Shown: in pieces, positions 95-7,402 of the stretch
How the letters are laid out: each line of letters starts with the position of its first letter
Position numbering within the stretch: position 1 is the first letter of the stretch
Assembly: GCA_963575745.1 (NCBI GenBank)
Contig: CAUYUJ010019270.1
Coordinates: forward strand, 135,431-199,430
Length of the DNA: 64,000 bases
Origin: Prorocentrum cordatum
Taxonomy: Eukaryota; Sar; Dinophyceae; Prorocentrales; Prorocentraceae
Direction of reading: 5' to 3'
The notes under the pieces: generated by a model
Databases searched by the model: none
What the model was told of the DNA's origin: nothing
The model's input: the letters and a program-made list of their open reading frames with translations, nothing else
Program-made: the position numbers and the translations under genes

Positions 95-576
95 CTTGGG
101 CGTCGTTTCATCGGGGGCGGTAAATGGGGGAATCTGGAGACCCCGAACCCAAAAATGTTGTCATCTCTTTGGGGCGCATTGTTACGTCCGCCACCTTCCG
201 CCGCCCTTCCGCTGGCTTCCGGCGGCGGAGGCGGCCTCGTCGTACTTCCGCCGACCTTCCGCCGCCCTTCCGCCGCCGCCGCCTTCGGCCGCGGAAGGCC
301 TGAAAAAAGCACCTCTCGGGGCCTTCGAGGGCTCCTTTTCTGCAACGCTCGCTGCCCTCCTCATTTATGCCCCCCCCCATTTCGCGACGCCCAACGTCTC
401 GGGATCTGCTGACCCAGGTCAATCCAGACTCGGGTCCGTCAGGCCCTGCAGGATCCTGCAGGATCCTGCACCCAAGCCCAGGTCAGTGCACCCCTGGCTC
501 TACAGGATCCTGCAAGATCCGGCGCTCTGACTGACCCCCGTTTGCATTGACCCCCGTCCCTTGAGCCCCGAACGTC
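95..576 (-). mobile_element. Intron 9 of EF-hand gene, TIR-like ends, contains CTTCCGCC repeat
   Basis: Intron with a GA donor (AGG|GACGTT) and an AAG|G acceptor. Its two ends are only loosely inverted (GGGGG-rich blocks around 535-565 and 110-130), so element status is weaker than for the other introns of this gene. The middle (about 180-370) is a CTTCCGCC-rich dispersed repeat also found near 46640-46770 and 52655-52780. A short GGATCCTGCA tandem lies at 445-520. Confidence 0.45.
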
Positions 577-807: not shown

Positions 808-1052
808 CTAGAGGAGCAACAAGCTGCACAAGCATAAGCCTGTCGGAGGTCCGCGAGGATATCTTGGGTCGGCGCTGGACCCCCTTCCCTGGCGTGCGGA
901 GCGCGCCAGGGGCAGCGCCCGAGGCGCCGCCGGGAGAGCCCAGCGACGATCTAAGAAATCAGCGCGGAGCTCCGACAAGTTTCTGTTTATGCAATTGTTC
1001 TTTCTTCGACGTCCTCCGCGCCGAGGCGGGGCTCCCTTGGGGAGCAGACCTC
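808..1052 (-). mobile_element. Intron 8 of EF-hand gene = TIR element (family 4 introner-like)
   Basis: The 245-bp intron is almost entirely one inverted-repeat element. About 68 bp at each end pair with roughly three-quarters identity; shared blocks include TGTCGGAG, TCCGCG and CGGCGCTGG (GTCGCTGG in one arm). The inverted repeats start within a few bases of the splice sites. The donor is GAG|GA or, three bases on, GAG|GT; the acceptor is CTCTAG|GA. A free-standing relative with the same arms sits at 47609-47806. This is direct sequence evidence for an intron made of a mobile element. Confidence 0.8.
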
Positions 1053-1286
1053 CTCGGCGATCTCCAGGACGGTCCCGTGGTCGGCCATGCACCCCAAGAG
1101 GTACAGGAGGTCCGTCACCCGGTCTACCGGGATTGTGCCGGAGCCGTCGGCGTCGAGGGCCTCGAAGGCCTCGCGGAACCGCTGCCGCTCCATGTCGCGT
1201 GCCTTCCTGTGGCACATGAGCCACTCGTGGAAGTCCAGACCCCCGCTGCCGTCTGCGTCCACCTCGGCCGCAAGGGCCGCCACCTC
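1053..1286 (-). CDS. EF-hand protein, exon 8
   Basis: A 78-codon, phase-0 exon containing one canonical EF-hand loop, DADGSGGLDFHE (ligands at 1, 3, 5 and 12, Gly6, Leu8). A second loop, DADGSGTIPVDR, has Arg at position 12 and is probably impaired. The helices between them are well formed (MERQRFREAFEAL, VTDLLYLLGCM). The 5' junction shares the direct repeat GAGGAG between the donor at 3334 and the acceptor at 1287. The 3' end is ambiguous by one codon (1053 or 1050), either giving phase 0. This is the best EF-hand evidence in the window together with exon 7. Confidence 0.9.
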
Positions 1287-2755
1287 CTCGAGATTGCTTT
1301 TATTCCTTCCCCCCATAACGTCCGTTACAGTGAGGGGGAAATGAAGCTCCCGCAGGGGGGGCGGTAATGGTAACGTGGTCGGGCCACTTGGGGGGGAGGC
1401 CAGGCGCCAGACGACGACGGCGCCGACCACGACGACCACCGCCACCACGACGACGACGACGACGACGAGGACGAGGACAAGAACATGGACGACAATGAGG
1501 ACGAGTACGAGGACGAGGGAGACGACGACGACGAAGATGACGACGACGACCACGACGACTACGTCAACGACAGCCACCTCTGAAAATCCGAAGGGTCTCA
1601 GGAGGCCCCAGGAGATCTCCAGAGATCTCTGGTAGCAACTAAGACGGCCCTCAGAGGCTCTCAGAGACGACGACAACGACAACGACGACGACAACGACGA
1701 CGACGACGAAGCCGACGACGAGGATTACGAGGACAAGGACGAGGGCGAGGACGACGAGAACGACGACGCGGAAGACGACGGCGGCGCCCACGACAACGGC
1801 CACCTTTGGAGACCTCTGGAGACGCCGCAGAGGTCTCTGGAGATCTCTGGAGACCTCTGGAGGCGCCTGGGGACCCTCCGAGGACCTCAGAGACGAAGAC
1901 GCCGACGACGACGCCGACGACGACGCCGACGCGGACGACAACGACGACGAGGACGAGGACGACGACGAGGGCGGGGACTAGGACAAGGACTAGGACGAGG
2001 AGGACGACGACGACGGCCGCCTCTGAAGGTCTCCATAGGTCTCCAGAGGCTGCCAGGAAATCTCTGGAGACCTCTGGAGGCATTTGGAGGACCTCCGAGG
2101 TATTCAGAAACAACGACGAGAAAGACGACGCCGACAACGACGACCAGTACGAAGACGACAACCACGACGAGGACGACGAGGACGACGAAAAAGACAACGA
2201 CGACGACGACGACGAGGACGACGACGACGATTACGAGGACGAGGACGAGGACAAGACAAGGACGAGGAAGAAGACGACGACGGCGACGAGGACGAGGGCA
2301 AGGACGAGGGCGAGGACGACGACGAGGACATAGACGACGACGACAACGACGTCGACGACGAGGGACAGGACGAGGACGAGGACGACGACGGTGACGACGA
2401 GGACGAGGACGACGAGGAGGAGGGACATCACGAGGACGAGGACGACGCCGACGACGAGGGCGGGGACAAGGACGAGGACAAGGACGAGGAAGACGACGAC
2501 GACGAGGGACATCACGAGGACGAGGACGACGACTACGACGAGGGCAGGGACGACACGAGGACGAAGGACAGGACGAGGACGAGGACGCGGACGACGGCCG
2601 ACTCTGAAGGTCTCCAGGAGGTCTCTGGAGGCCCGTCTTCTGGAGGCCCTCCGAGGCCCGCAGGGACAACGACGAAGACGACGACGAGGGCGACAACGAC
2701 GAAGTCGAGGACGAGGACGAGGACGACGACGACGGACGACACGAGGACGAGGGAC

Positions 2756-2793
<38 letters not shown>

Positions 2794-3333
2794 AACCAGG
2801 ACGAGGGCGAGGACGAGGAAGACGACGGTGACGACGACGAGGAGGAGGACGACGACGACGACGAGGACGAGGGACGGCACGAGGACGAGGGCGAGGACGA
2901 CGACGACGGTGACGACGACGACGACGACGACGACGAGGACGACGACGACGACGACGAGGTCGAGGTCGAGGACGAGGACGAGGATGAGGGCGAGAACGAG
3001 GACGAGAACGAGGACGAGGACGACAACGGACGACGACATCGATGAGGACGAGAACGACGACGAGGACGAGAACGAGAACGACGACGACGGCCGCCTCTGA
3101 AGGTCCCCAGGGTTCTCGGGAGGCTCCAGGGGGTCTCTGGAGGCCTCTGGAAGCATCTGGGGGTTCCGATGCCTGTAAGCATTTCACCATGGCTGTGAGC
3201 ACGGCGCCATGCCTGTGGGGGGGCCGCCCCCTGCACCTCCCCCGCGCACGTTCGTTACCGCTACGAAGGGGGAGCGGGGGGGCGACCCCCCCGTAACGTC
3301 CGTTACGGGTTCAATGCGTAATCAGACAGTCTC
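1287..3333 (-). mobile_element. Intron 7 of EF-hand gene, GAC-repeat-filled, palindromic ends
   Basis: A 2.05-kb intron with a GA donor. Near both ends lies the palindrome TAACG(GA/TC)CGTTA (about 3291-3312 and 1314-1328) followed by G-runs, so the ends are inverted copies of each other. The interior is the trinucleotide tract listed separately, split by short CTCTGGAGACCTCTGGAGG segments that read as a second minisatellite (around 1600-1640, 1800-1880, 2030-2100, 2600-2660 and 3090-3160). A similar TAACG palindrome occurs at 27667-27685. Confidence 0.6.
1420..3085. repeat. GAC/GACGAG trinucleotide tract
   Basis: About 1.6 kb of imperfect GAC, GACGAG and GACAAC repeats. Because stop codons are rare in this composition, several long reading frames (up to 449 codons) stay open on both strands as Asp/Glu-, Arg/Thr- and Ser/Val-rich peptides. 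These are not considered genes. Confidence 0.95.
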
Positions 3334-3837
3334 CTCGGCGTCGAGGAAGCTGCCCTGCCACGCGAGGGCGCGGGGCACGTGCTCGCTGCCGACGGAGCCC
3401 GTGCCGTCCGGGTCAAAGCGCTGGAAGAGCTCCTGCAGTGCCTGGCGCTCCTCGCGCGTGAAGCCCACGCTCTCGCGCAGCAGGCGGATGAGGCCCTCGA
3501 ACTCTTGCAGGTCGAGCTGGCCGGAGCCGTCGCTGTCGGTCTCCTGCATCAGCTCGTGGAGCAGCTGGGTGGAGGGCAGCTGTCCGAACACGTCGATCAT
3601 CACACCCCTCAGCTCGTCCATGCTGACGAAGCCCGAACGGTCCGCGTCTGCCCTCTCGAAGGCCTCCCGCACCCTCTCCCTGTACCGCCGCTCGAACAGG
3701 TCCATGAACCGGAAGAACTCCTCCTGCCCCAGGGAGCTGAACATGGACACCGACTCGAAGGCCGCGTCGAGGTCCGCCTGCCGCGCGGACGCCAGGCCGG
3801 CCTGATCGGCGGCCTGGCGCAGGTCCTCCCGCATCAC
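3334..3837 (-). CDS. EF-hand protein, exon 7 (largest, three EF-hands)
   Basis: A 168-codon, phase-0 exon starting after a CCCAG acceptor and ending at a GAG|GA donor. Order along the exon: a helical lead (VMREDLRQAADQ), a helical pair around FFRFMDLFERRYRERVREAFERA, canonical loop DADRSGFVSMDE, canonical loop DSDGSGQLDLQE, and a weaker loop DPDGTGSVGSEH with the acid at position 11. The canonical loops have Asp1, Asp3, Ser5, Gly6, a hydrophobic residue at 8 and Glu12, so Ca2+ binding is expected. With exons 8-10 the protein has at least seven EF-hands, more than calmodulin or centrin (four). It therefore belongs with the extended EF-hand proteins, possibly with a non-EF N-terminal region encoded upstream. 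Confidence 0.92.
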
Positions 3838-4798
3838 CTGGGCACCGCGGGCGTACACACACACGCACACACACACACACGTAGAGCAGGGGATCGACGA
3901 CAGAGTTGACGAACCCCGAAAGTTGACCTGTTCGTCGCGTCTGCAAAAACTCGTATGCAGAATTTTACATGTCGATCTACGGAGCACCTGGGGACATCGG
4001 GCATCTAGACGGCATGTGCACTCTTGTACGGACCGCGATGTCGCGGGCGTTGGTTTCTGACGCCGCGTGGATCGTTCAACCTCGAACGATCGCGGCTCTC
4101 CGATAGCGCAGATCGCTCGACATCGGCCTGCTCTGGGCTGCTGGCGGCGTTCAACCTTGAACGCCCGCGCCAGGGTCGCCGCCGCGCCAACGCGGCGTAA
4201 ACCTACCGTGTCCGGACCCTGTCCCATGGGGCTTCGCAGAAACGCCCCTGGACAACGTGCAGTGTACAACTTTCCTGCTGGTTCTCTTGGCGACAGGTGC
4301 CGAACACAACGTACACTCTGCGGTTGGGCCGCCATCTGCCACTAAGTGGTGGACAAACATCACCAACACAGAAGACTCACGCAGGACGAAGGAGCTTGCT
4401 CTTGAGGTGACAGTGGCGATGATGAGTTCGAAAGATCACATCGGCGCCGCCGAACGGACGGCGTCGGGACGAGCTGCGTTCAGCTCGTCCAGGAGGCGCG
4501 TTCCAGGCTCAAGAGGAAAACACTTTCGTCCTGGGTCGGTGCCGTCGCCTGGCACCGAGGACCCAGAGATCCGATGTTGTGATTTTGCCCATGCACGGTC
4601 CCTGGAAGTCTTGACCCATTCCCCAGGACCGCTTTTTCATCGTGGTTCGTTTTTTGACTGTCCCGAGGCCCTGCGAGGGCCCCTAGGGGACGAAATTGGC
4701 GCAAAACCTCCGTCTTGATTTTTTCAATGCGTTGGACCTCTGGGGACGTTGGTCGGGCCACTGGCCGACGTAGTGGACGGATTCCTGGCCCCGGCTAC
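3838..4798 (-). other. Intron 6 of EF-hand gene
   Basis: Roughly 960 bp. It contains a CA/GT microsatellite next to the acceptor (3853-3880), a dispersed repeat (4597-4720) and otherwise unremarkable sequence. The only donor in the reading frame that keeps exon 7 open is CGG|GTAGCC at 4799/4798, so this would be a GT-AG intron. I saw no strong terminal inverted repeat here. Confidence 0.5.
4597..4720 (+). repeat. Dispersed repeat family 3, copy 1
   Basis: About 125 bp of recurring blocks: GGTCCCTGGAAGT, CCCCAGG, TTTCATC, TTTTTTGAC, GCGAGGGCC and a closing CGTC(T/G)T. Related copies lie at 15199-15325, 27512-27634 and 42195-42298. No terminal inverted repeat or ORF was recognised. Confidence 0.6.
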
Positions 4799-4979
4799 CC
4801 GCTGCCCCTTCGCCAGGCGGCCGAACACTCGCCTCCACAGCTTCTCGCGCGGATCGGCCCTGGAGCTGCCTGGCTCGGCGTGCCCCTGCTGCGGGTGAAG
4901 CGATGCCCGCGGACCAGCCGCGCCCAGACGATCCACTGCTGTGGCCCTCTTCTCCGCTCGGCCCCACAGCCCCGACCTC
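4799..4979 (-). CDS. EF-hand gene, exon 6 (unrecognised region)
   Basis: A 60-codon exon entered in phase 2 from exon 5 through the acceptor CCCACAG. It gives a basic, helical stretch ending ADPREKLWRRVFGRLAKGQR. It was chosen because it is the frame with the highest GC at third positions and because the donor repeat CACAGG matches the acceptor. It joins exon 7 in phase 0. No domain is recognised. A competing frame starting at 4869 also splices but has much lower GC3. Confidence 0.6.
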
Positions 4980-5130
4980 CTGTGGGCAGGGCTGGACCTA
5001 AACGTTGTTTCTGGTTTTATTGTCGTTCTGGTCTTTGTTTGGCTCGACCTGTGTTCCTGTACCTCCCTGCCAAGACGAGAAGCAAAACACGGCCGAAGTC
5101 TGGCAAAACAGCTTTTAGGTCCAGCCCTGC
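4980..5130 (-). mobile_element. Intron 5 of EF-hand gene = short foldback element
   Basis: A 151-bp intron with a GC donor (CACAG|GC). Its first 20 bases (GCAGGGCTGGACCTAAA...) reappear inverted at 4986-5005, followed by a matching TGTTT block, so the whole intron can fold into one hairpin whose arms start at the donor and end six bases before the acceptor. Direct repeat CACAGG at the junction. This is the cleanest example of a TIR element occupying an intron in this window. Confidence 0.8.
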
Positions 5131-5276
5131 CTGTGATTGACCGCGCCAGAGGCCGCCGGGAGAGTCTCGCGCGGGGGCTCGTCGGTGGAGCCTGCGAGGC
5201 GGCTCACCACCATCGAGACCCGGGCGGCCCTCGTCCAGCGGTCCGACGGGGGGCAGGACTCCTGGCCCTGGAGCTC
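5131..5276 (-). CDS. EF-hand gene, exon 5
   Basis: A 48-codon-plus-2 exon between a CCGAGAG acceptor and a CACAG|GC donor, reading ELQGQESCPPSDRWTRAA and then RVSMVVSRLAGSTDEPPRE. Entry phase 0, exit phase 2. GC3 is high and both flanking introns are TIR elements. The content (Ser/Arg/Pro, few hydrophobic segments) matches no domain I can name. Its place in the EF-hand gene is inferred from phase continuity only. Confidence 0.6.
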
Positions 5277-5446
5277 CTCTCGGCTGCACGCAAGAAGAGA
5301 CCCTAGGCAAGAGTGATCGTTGGTGCGCAGCTTTAGGGGGCCGCGGGTGGGCCAAACCCATGCGCGCAAGCCAACGGTGAGTGGACCCCTGTGCGCCCGC
5401 ATGAGAGGTTACTCCAGCGAAGGGTCACTTTTACGTGTAACCGATC
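5277..5446 (-). mobile_element. Intron 4 of EF-hand gene, TIR-bearing
   Basis: A 170-bp intron with a GA donor (CCCGAG|GATC). The ends pair over about 26 bp: TCGGTTACACGTAA at the donor side against TCGGCTGCACGCAA (inverted) at the acceptor side, each followed by GACCCT. Direct repeat GAGGA at the junction. Confidence 0.72.
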
Positions 5447-5719
5447 CTCGGGCTCCGTGCCGCCAGCCACCAGCGCGTCTTGCGCCGTCGGCTCCGCCGC
5501 GCCAGACTTGGTCTTCGACCTGGCGAGGCGCGACGACGCCAGGGCGGCGCGCAACAGGCTGCTGCTGGCGCAGCCCTGGGCGGGCCGCTGCTCCTCTTCG
5601 TCCTCTGGATCGGACTTGTCACCCTCGTCGGGGTCCCGGGGTCCCCGCTCGCGGCGCTCGGGCTCCCGGGGCGGCAGTGGTGGGCCGGATCGCAGCCGGA
5701 AGCGGCGGTGCTGCGCCTC
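5447..5719 (-). CDS. EF-hand gene, exon 4 (acidic/basic low-complexity)
   Basis: A 91-codon, phase-0 exon. It is rich in Arg, Pro, Glu and Ala: a basic start (EAQHRRFRLRSGPPLPPRE), an acidic centre (DPDEGDKSDPEDEEEQRP) and an Ala/Ser helix (SSSLLRAALASSRLARSK). It is probably a disordered linker. The overlapping plus-strand frame looks hydrophobic but is a shadow: only the minus frame splices to both neighbours. Direct repeats at its junctions are CAGGA upstream and GAGGA downstream. Confidence 0.65.
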
Positions 5720-6157
5720 CTGTCGGCGGCGCGCCCAGGTGGGAAATGATAGGGGGCAGGCCTGCTCAGAAGGCGGTCGGGCTTCTCAGAAGCCATCCTG
5801 CGTTCTGAGAAGCCATCTCTGCCTTCGGAGAAAGCCGAGAAAACTTCTCGTTGAGCAGGGACCGGCCGTCCCAGCATTCCTATAGTGCTACCATGAACTG
5901 CTCTTAGAACCCAAAAAGGTTCAACTAACAAAAACAATGTTCTTAGAACATTAACCCGAGGTGTTAAAACAAGACAGATTCAACCAGAGATGCTTTAAGA
6001 ACATATCGTGCAAACCACAGAAGGTTCTTAGAACATTCTTTGGTAGGCCTATGGGCGAGCCAGGACTCTTCGCCACTGCTTGATTCTCGGGAGGCCTTCC
6101 GGAGCCTTCTGAGAAGGCCAGCCCCCTCTGCATTCCCCCCTGGGCTCGCCGCCGATC
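5720..6157 (-). mobile_element. Intron 3 of EF-hand gene = family 1 TIR element (introner-like)
   Basis: A 438-bp intron with a GA donor (GAGCAG|GATC). The two ends are inverted copies starting three bases inside the splice sites: TCGGCGGCG, GCCCAGG, GGGAA, AGGGGGC and TCAGAAGGC occur in order on both arms (arm about 52 bp). The interior has further CTTCTCAGAAG palindromes and AT-rich DNA with AGAACATT/AATGTTCT dyads. Free copies with the same GGCGGCGAGCG ends and CTTCTCAGAAG cores lie at 8147-8340 and 41388-41582. Confidence 0.82.
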
Positions 6158-6391
6158 CTGCTCCACGACCTGGTGGAGCACACCACGCCAAGATCTGCAC
6201 AGGTTGTGTGGCTCCCTGAGCTCCAGGGCCTGGGACACTACCTGCGCCACCGCGCCGGCGGGGCCGCCCCTCCGCGCCACAGGCGGCAGGCGCCCCCGCG
6301 CGGCGTCTCGCGCCGCGCCGAGGCAGGCCTCGAGCCAGTGGACGCTGTCGCAGGCCCCGAGCGCGCTGCGAACCGCTGCGCGCACGGACTC
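6158..6391 (-). CDS. EF-hand gene, exon 3
   Basis: A 78-codon, phase-0 exon after a GAGAG acceptor. It reads ESVRAAVRSALGACDSVHW then LEACLGAARDAARGRL, and later AVAQVVSQALELREPHNL, and ends VLHQVVEQ at a CAG|GA donor. The pattern of Ala/Leu/Val with spaced charges indicates alpha helices. Third-position GC is high. No family recognised. It is flanked on both sides by TIR introns. Confidence 0.72.
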
Positions 6392-6574
6392 CTCTCATGG
6401 GCCTGTTTTCCACCACCACGACCATTAGTTGGAGGGGGGAAGGAGGTGGAGGAGGAGGAGGAGGAGGAGGAGGAGGAGGAGGAGGAGGAGGAGGAGGAGG
6501 AGGAGGAGGAGGAGGAGGAGGACCCCCTCCCCCTCCCACTTGTGGTGGTGGTGGTAGAACACACGCCCATCATC
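6392..6574 (-). mobile_element. Intron 2 of EF-hand gene = TIR element with (CTC)n core
   Basis: A 183-bp intron with a GA donor (GCGGAG|GATG). About 45 bp at each end are inverted copies: ATGGGC, TGT, TTC, ACCACCAC and GGAGGGGG occur in the same order on both arms. The space between is an uninterrupted CTC/GAG run (about 6440-6525). Direct repeat GAGGA at the junction. Confidence 0.8.
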
Positions 6575-6820
6575 CTCCGCCGCCGCGGGGCCGTCCGGGC
6601 CGCCGCCGCAGGGCCCCCGTGGCGTTGGCGCGGCGCCGCCGCCGGGGCGCCCGCCGCGGGGCTCTGCGGGAGCCGGCGCCGGCAGGCCCTGCAGGCCCGG
6701 CAGCCACGGCGCACCCGCCGTCGCCCCTGCAGCGCTCCGCCGCGAGGCCTCGGGCGAGGCCCGGCGGCGGCTGCGCTCCCTGGCGGTGGCGCGCGGAACC
6801 GCCGGGGGGCCCTCGACGGC
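6575..6820 (-). CDS. EF-hand gene, exon 2 (Ala/Gly/Pro/Arg-rich)
   Basis: An 82-codon exon in the frame beginning AVEGPPAVPRATARERSRRR and ending DGPAAAE, joined in phase 0 to exon 3. It is low complexity and probably disordered. Its start is uncertain: the AAG|GCC acceptor at 6821 gives a GGCCGT direct repeat with the upstream donor. An earlier acceptor near 6854 would add GFRTFVDK, which looks protein-like. Function unknown. Confidence 0.55.
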
Positions 6821-7402
6821 CTTGTCGACGAACGTGCGGAAACCCCTTCGATGGGTCAAAGGTGGGGTCCTGAGGCATGGGGTCCTACGTTCAAGCCGTG
6901 AGATAAGGACGCGCGATCAGGACGCAAGGGCCTCGAGGGCCAAGTCGACACTCTGCGAGCGGGGCGCGGCCAGCGAAAGCGGCCACGGACGGGCCGAAGG
7001 GGAAGGATGCAAGGGCAACCTCGGAAAGTCGCTCATCCTTACTATGCGGGTTGACTGCCAGCACGAGGTGCTTCAAGCAACGAAAATCCACCCTTGGATC
7101 CCGCCCTATCCTGAGGGCCGATAGCACGGGATCCGAGGGTGGATCTGCATTGCCTGAGGCACCTCGTCCTTACAGTCGGGGTGTTGACCTAAGGAACCCT
7201 AAATAAGGAACGAGGGCCCTGTTCTCCACAAGCTAAGCCCCATTGCCCATCGAAAACCCAAGGAAAACCGAAGGCAAACTGCAAAACGGCTAAGGAACAC
7301 TGAGCCCCTCCCAAACGAGCAGGGCTCCTTCTTCAGCGCCCCGACTGGAGGACCCCATCCCCCAGGACTCCATCTTTGCGCCGCCGGCTCCTGCTCCACG
7401 GC
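6821..7402 (-). mobile_element. Intron 1 of EF-hand gene, TIR-bearing, with nested foldback
   Basis: A 582-bp intron with a GC donor if the exons are placed correctly. The sequence CAAAG(A/G)TGG(A/G)GTCCTG followed by ATGGGGTCCT occurs about 25 bp inside the donor and, inverted, about 35 bp inside the acceptor (arms of at least 33 bp). It contains the separate foldback at 7048-7190, and the stretch 6905-7025 resembles 61505-61630. Confidence 0.6.
7048..7190. mobile_element. Foldback element nested in intron 1
   Basis: A 143-bp hairpin. One arm contains GTTGAC, GACGAGGTGC/CACGAGGTGC, GCAA and ATCCACCCT(T/C)GGATCCCG, and the other arm carries the same blocks inverted. Arms are about 60 bp with indels and the loop is under 25 bp. 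No coding capacity. Confidence 0.75.

Follow-up and report, generated by a model that had tools for sequence, protein, structure and literature searches.

Most introns of an EF-hand gene of Prorocentrum cordatum are probably inverted-repeat transposons whose target-site duplications supply the splice sites

We analysed a 64,000-nucleotide stretch of the genome of the dinoflagellate Prorocentrum cordatum (contig CAUYUJ010019270.1, here C18421; C18421:135431-199430; hereafter the window; G+C ∼0.59), which carries on its minus strand a gene for an EF-hand protein. With a probability of roughly nine in ten, most introns of this gene are introners, that is, non-autonomous inverted-repeat DNA transposons resembling miniature inverted-repeat transposable elements (MITEs), which inserted into coding sequence and are spliced out. 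Introners, whose occurrence in dinoflagellates the first-pass annotation of the window had mentioned, are already established in this group, including P. cordatum (PMC10666404). The gene is a detailed new example, in which the origin of individual splice sites can be followed in the duplications that flank the elements.

The gene model places AG|G junctions at short direct repeats. By this rule, exon 2 to the partial exon 10 lie at 6845-6575, 6391-6158, 5719-5447, 5276-5131, 4979-4799, 3837-3334, 1286-1014, 807-577 and 94-2 of the window (all features of the gene are on the minus strand). The span of 808..7402 given earlier had the strand right and was too short, as the gene continues beyond the left end of the window and intron 9 (576-95) falls outside it. 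Once introns 2-9 were taken out, the nine exons joined into one frame of 735 residues with 0 stops, and the other two frames held 2 and 9. The predicted donors are GA in introns 2, 3, 4, 7, 8 and 9, GC in intron 5 and GT in intron 6, and the predicted acceptors of introns 2-9 are all AG. The gene's later exons have matches among the calmodulin chains of the PDB, and two relatives, P0001 and P0005, match EF-hand families in Pfam. Both relatives are uninterrupted proteins from other sources and probably represent transcripts: P0001 (contig of 1711 bases, 502 residues) shares 79% identity, and P0005 (contig of 2121 bases, 680 residues) 72%, each over part of the gene product. The P0001 alignment crosses junctions 7, 8 and 9 with zero gaps, and that of P0005 covers junction 6 too and crosses the same three with a single short gap that lies upstream of junction 8, away from the junctions. 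Junction 6 (KGQR|VMRED) agrees with P0005, junction 7 (DAE|EVAAL) with P0001, and junctions 8 and 9 with both. The frame, and for introns 6-9 only the uninterrupted relatives, suggest that splicing occurs at the predicted sites.

To score terminal inverted repeats (TIRs), we compared 90 bp (or half the intron) at each end of the nine introns with dinucleotide shuffles (n = 2000). For introns 1, 2, 3, 4, 5 and 8, in which the first-pass annotation had reported clear repeats, the score was reached by 0/2000 shuffles each. The weaker repeats it had reported in introns 7 and 9 fared less well. Intron 7 was borderline (23/2000), and in intron 9 no inverted repeat lies at the splice sites (1590/2000), as a second element adjoins the donor; a TIR appears there after that element is removed. 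No repeat is seen in intron 6 (998/2000). With 500 shuffles in an earlier run, where the borders were less exact, 1 shuffle reached the score for intron 4 and 6 did so for intron 7. As had been noticed from the letters, the arms lie close to donor and acceptor in introns 2, 3, 4, 5 and 8, starting 1-7 bases from the predicted splice sites, and they are unlike between introns. Element ends coincide with the predicted intron ends in these five introns and for the outer element of intron 9, and not in intron 6. When we scanned the window for inverted repeats with fixed duplications, their number did not exceed that in shuffles at 3 bp (22 vs 17-24) or 5 bp (4 vs 0-8); it did so at 4, 6 and 8 bp, partly inside simple repeats. 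The scan recovered only introns 3 and 5 of the gene as elements, because diverged arms escape it.

Searches of the whole assembly (4,128,499,153 bases or 4.13 Gb; 21,875 contigs) showed that introns 2, 4, 5 and 8 represent four repeat families unrelated to one another, in line with the earlier impression that several families are involved. A loose search gave 744, 1897, 2170 and 4331 first-look candidates, respectively, only the best 40 per search being scored. The scored matches for these introns reach at most 18 bases past the predicted element, and many end short of it. We then compared the flanks of each copy with re-paired ends (342 pairs for sets of 19 copies) in 100,000 permutations, after removing duplicate rows (among them L091, equal to L090, and L116, equal to L115). 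The copies carry TIRs and target-site duplications (TSDs) of fixed length, 5 bp for introns 2, 4 and 8 and 8 bp for intron 5, as expected of MITE-type DNA transposons with TIRs.

The clearest case was intron 2 (6392..6574), whose element (6572-6395, TIR TGATGGGC/GCCCATGA) lies between copies of GAGGA at 6577-6573 and 6394-6390. Eight scored matches span exactly query 24-201, which are the predicted first and last bases of the element, TIR to TIR, and several more begin or finish within a few bases of these limits. Exact 5-bp TSDs were present in 15 of 19 copies (20 fetched, one duplicate row removed) and in 0/342 re-paired ends, a total reached by 0/100,000 permutations; AGGA or its complement occurred in the TSD of only 2/19. 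For intron 4 (5277..5446; element 5444-5280, TIR TCGGTTACACG / CGTGCAGCCGA, TSDs GAGGA), the TSD was exact in 5/19 copies (again 20 less one duplicate row) and near-exact in 4 more (0/100,000 permutations); two of the exact ones read GAGGA, as in the window. Intron 8 (808..1013; element 1009-809) is flanked by GGACG at 1014-1010 and 808-804. Its full direct repeat is AGGACGT, and the 5-bp reading was taken from the genome copies, which have two end types, TAGGGGAAC and TCGAAG. Of 30 loci, one being the window itself, 21 could be anchored; six of these with other ends were excluded, and the 15 copies with TAGGGG-like ends gave 4 exact 5-bp TSDs and 6 matching at 4/5 (1/100,000 permutations). 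Another copy of this family, L034, sits within a longer near-perfect palindrome that reaches into its flanks.

The element of intron 5 (4980..5130; element 5129-4987, TIR CAGGGCTGGACCTAAA) is of a different type. Its 8-bp TSDs, ATCACAGG / CCCACAGG, are alike at 6/8 bases, and all 39 other scored matches lie inside query 9-167, the element being query 17-159. All 8 flanking bases were alike in 4/19 copies and at least 6/8 in 11/19, compared with 6/342 re-paired ends (0/100,000 permutations); L072, which has a changed end, was left out of this test, and an exact 8-bp repeat is seen there by eye. MITEs of the hAT superfamily have 8-bp TSDs, and 8-bp TSDs together with TIR ends of the CAGGG type are presumably hAT traits. 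With 8-bp TSDs and TIRs beginning CAGGG, the intron-5 family is hAT-like, sharing both features with hAT MITEs and, as predicted, additionally acting as an intron.

Intron 3 (5720..6157; element 6155-5723, TIR TCGGCGGCG, TSDs CAGGA) holds a second, abundant element of ∼233 bp nested at ∼6083-5851. Its query returned 10,527 first-look candidates, the most of any single-intron search, and 40 of 41 other matches fell inside query 92-339, the nested part; the exception spans 21-402. The listed full-length copies of the nested element are 77-89% identical. An un-nested copy of the intron-3 family lies at 41584-41388 (minus) of the window, with the TSD TTCAC by eye. A further copy at 8340-8140 (minus), upstream of the gene, adjoins a short telomere-like TTTAGGG run (∼8384-8350, by eye), and no clear duplication was found for it. 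Since intron 3 (TSD CAGGA) and the outer element of intron 9 (TSD GGACG) are built on the same plan as the four surveyed families, the count of at least five families in the first-pass annotation was fair.

The duplications in this gene straddle AG|G and therefore supply the predicted splice sites. In introns 2, 3 and 4 (GAGGA, CAGGA and GAGGA), the GA donor lies in the left TSD copy and the AG acceptor in the right one. Introns 8 and 9 (GGACG) have an acceptor AG made up of the last A of the element and the first G of the TSD. In intron 5, the last G of the TSD and the first C of the element form the GC donor. Within the gene, GA donors thus come with the 5-bp families and the GC donor with the hAT-like family. 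Over seven introns (introns 1 and 6, with repeats of 3 and 4 bases as then placed, were left out), the direct repeats at the junctions averaged 5.9 bases, against 4.3 for re-paired ends (permutation p 0.0027). The same AG|G layout is found elsewhere: in a copy of the intron-2 family on the contig with AGGAG on both sides, in L030 (intron-8-type, GGACT), in L064 and L065 (intron-5-type) and in L089 and L103 (intron-4-type). The joined flanks of the latter five loci are open in at least one frame, which is weak evidence given how often frames are open in this G+C-rich genome. L030 had appeared by eye to lie in a cysteine-protease gene, a candidate that was dropped when the Pfam search gave no family and the matches in the PDB proved weak and unrelated. 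The joined sites of L025, L039, L078, L118, L119 and L123 gave nothing decisive, and L025 does not fit the AG|G layout.

Taken together, these data suggest the following course. Inverted-repeat elements, presumably mobilised by transposases encoded elsewhere, would insert into coding sequence and duplicate a target of 5 or 8 bp. Where the duplication falls at AG|G, its left copy would give the donor and its right copy the acceptor, the spliceosome would remove the element at these sites in the cell, and a single frame would be restored. Because most sampled copies have other duplications, insertion itself seems largely indifferent to sequence, with copies at AGG-type sites in genes persisting as introns.

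Several observations weigh against this reading. In the gene region, 21% of random AGG pairs reach a 5-base repeat, so that one such junction repeat is weak when taken alone. Flanking bases agree at no more than 3/5 in 10/19 intron-4 copies and 5/15 intron-8 copies, and at no more than 5/8 in 8/19 intron-5 copies. The five joined peptides had no Pfam family above the cut-off, the nearest being L064 (Ion_trans, E 0.053, below the cut-off). No relative that we found spans introns 1-5. Intron 1 shows neither a duplication nor a standard donor, so its exact splice sites are uncertain; in intron 6 we see no element, and in the TIR test intron 7 is borderline. The first-pass annotation, which had the entire gene cut up by such elements, was overstated in this respect, intron 7 being only a probable case.

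The inverted repeats could instead have been kept because an RNA hairpin is needed to splice GA or GC donors, whatever the origin of these introns. The arms would bring donor and acceptor together, and a similar hairpin idea has been put forward for the introners of Amoebophrya (PMC7789003). However, introns 6 and 9 lack arms at the splice sites and those of intron 7 are weak, yet related proteins continue across these junctions, and arms are also present in copies whose duplications hold no AGG. We therefore regard this explanation as improbable, though it fares best among the alternatives.

Somewhat less probable still, for the gene as a whole, is that old, ordinary introns were later invaded by transposons that did not create them. 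This does hold for the nested elements, since introns 1, 3 and 9 are nests, and perhaps for intron 6. Intron 9 (95..576) shows an element landing inside an intron: an older, outer element A (TIR TTGGGCGTCG / CGACGCCCAA, TSD GGACG) contains, beside the donor, element B (571-399, TIR TCGGGG/CCCGA), which is flanked by GACGT on both sides. With B set aside, the arms of A were reached by 0/500 shuffles, as were those of B. We had at first taken intron 9 to be element-free and dropped this once its copies revealed the two nested elements. Three of 10 listed copies of B have clear, different 5-bp duplications by eye (GGTTC, GGGAA and TGGCA), the rest being unclear or decayed. In introns 2, 3, 4, 5 and 8, by contrast, the element fills the whole intron and the TSD straddles both splice sites, a layout that would not arise by insertion into a pre-existing intron. 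A spread of introns as RNA copies by reverse splicing (the route suggested for fungal introners), the inverted repeats then being secondary, would account for element borders that almost equal the splice sites in this gene, but it is very unlikely, as the copies carry 5- or 8-bp duplications of arbitrary sequence rather than of AGG alone and the intron-2 unit stops at its inverted repeats and not at the splice sites, both of them marks of DNA transposition.

For introners formed by insertion into coding sequence, the introns would be gains. Searching this genome at the protein level, we found relatives 31-33% identical at six places, most of the stretch lying in one open frame; two of the six score equally and may be one gene assembled twice. 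These paralogues are uninterrupted at introns 7 and 8 in 4/4 aligned cases and at intron 9 in the 3/3 that cover it, which fits intron gain in this gene. A further reservation is that paralogues at ∼32% identity could themselves have shed these introns by retroposition, which leaves gain over loss unproven.

The remaining introns are less readily read. Intron 1 (6846..7373) is a nest of elements with outer arms at 7378-7326 / 6909-6857 that are 72% complementary. Inside it lie repeats at ∼7351-7171 and ∼7057-6891 and a hairpin at 7177-7053 (0/500 shuffles); the two repeats are separately multi-copy, and the whole-intron query gave 7876 first-look candidates. Intron 6 (3838..4798, GT-AG) contains repeat fragments and is probably an ordinary intron; a donor at 4737 was replaced by 4798 on the P0005 alignment. 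Intron 7 (1287..3333) has the 7-bp direct repeat CGAGGAG at both ends and a weak TIR. Its interior (3100-1420 of the window) is mostly an imperfect CTCGTC-type tandem repeat interrupted by CTCCAGAGGTCTCCAGAG-like units (by eye), and similar stretches are present on other contigs. The 3′ part of the gene, corresponding to P0001 residues 219-502, was not found in the 130 kb downstream (C18421:5431-135430), a stretch that includes N runs; this may be due to a very long intron, an assembly join or truncation of the gene.

The phenomenon as such is known, because both the introner-rich introns of P. cordatum and the recruitment of splice sites from TSDs have been published. P. cordatum introns are rich in elements bearing an inverted repeat at each end, and its donors are GC (51.4%), GA (23.8%) and GT (24.7%) in a genome of 59.7% G+C (Dougan et al. 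2023, PMC10666404). Inverted-repeat intron elements and the three donor types are likewise seen here; there, introners were called by pattern (inverted repeats of 8-20 nt, direct repeats of 3-5 nt), whereas here families, TSD lengths and the probable origin of the splice sites are described. In Symbiodinium microadriaticum and other eukaryotes, introners are TIR DNA transposons with splice sites recruited from the TSD, some families drawing both from the insertion site, with GC and GA among the donors (Gozashti et al. 2022, PMC9860276). The Symbiodinium example has 4-bp TSDs and brings its own 3′ splice site, unlike the 5-bp and 8-bp families described here, where donor and acceptor arise via the TSD. 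Many introner families in one dinoflagellate genome are also known from a different species, Polarella glacialis, with 12,253 recent introner introns and 15 families of at least 100 introns (reviewed in PMC11453091). The introner elements of Amoebophrya carry inverted repeats close to both ends, and short direct repeats overlap their exon borders (Farhat et al. 2021, PMC7789003), an arrangement like that seen here; splice sites are highly variable there, in contrast to AG|GA or AG|GC with AG acceptors in this gene. A literature search joining introner, hAT and target-site duplication, which covered few subscription papers, found no paper, and a tie of family type to donor letters was not found in the parts of the literature examined and may already be published.

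Such a tie leads to a tentative proposal, which we consider possible rather than likely: the donor letters may record the founding transposon family, 5-bp families at AGGA/GGAC giving GA and hAT-like elements starting with C giving GC. The proportions of GA, GC and GT donors would then be a census of past invasions, with which relaxed donor recognition would have co-evolved. No fewer than five introner families are present in this one gene, the duplications of most of them can be read, and they would show how a splice-ready site can arise by transposition even when the element does not bring both splice sites itself. In this gene, donor type (GA or GC) goes with the length of the duplication and with the terminal letters, a relation that is testable over all introns of a dinoflagellate genome and bears on the high intron number and the loose donor rules of dinoflagellates.

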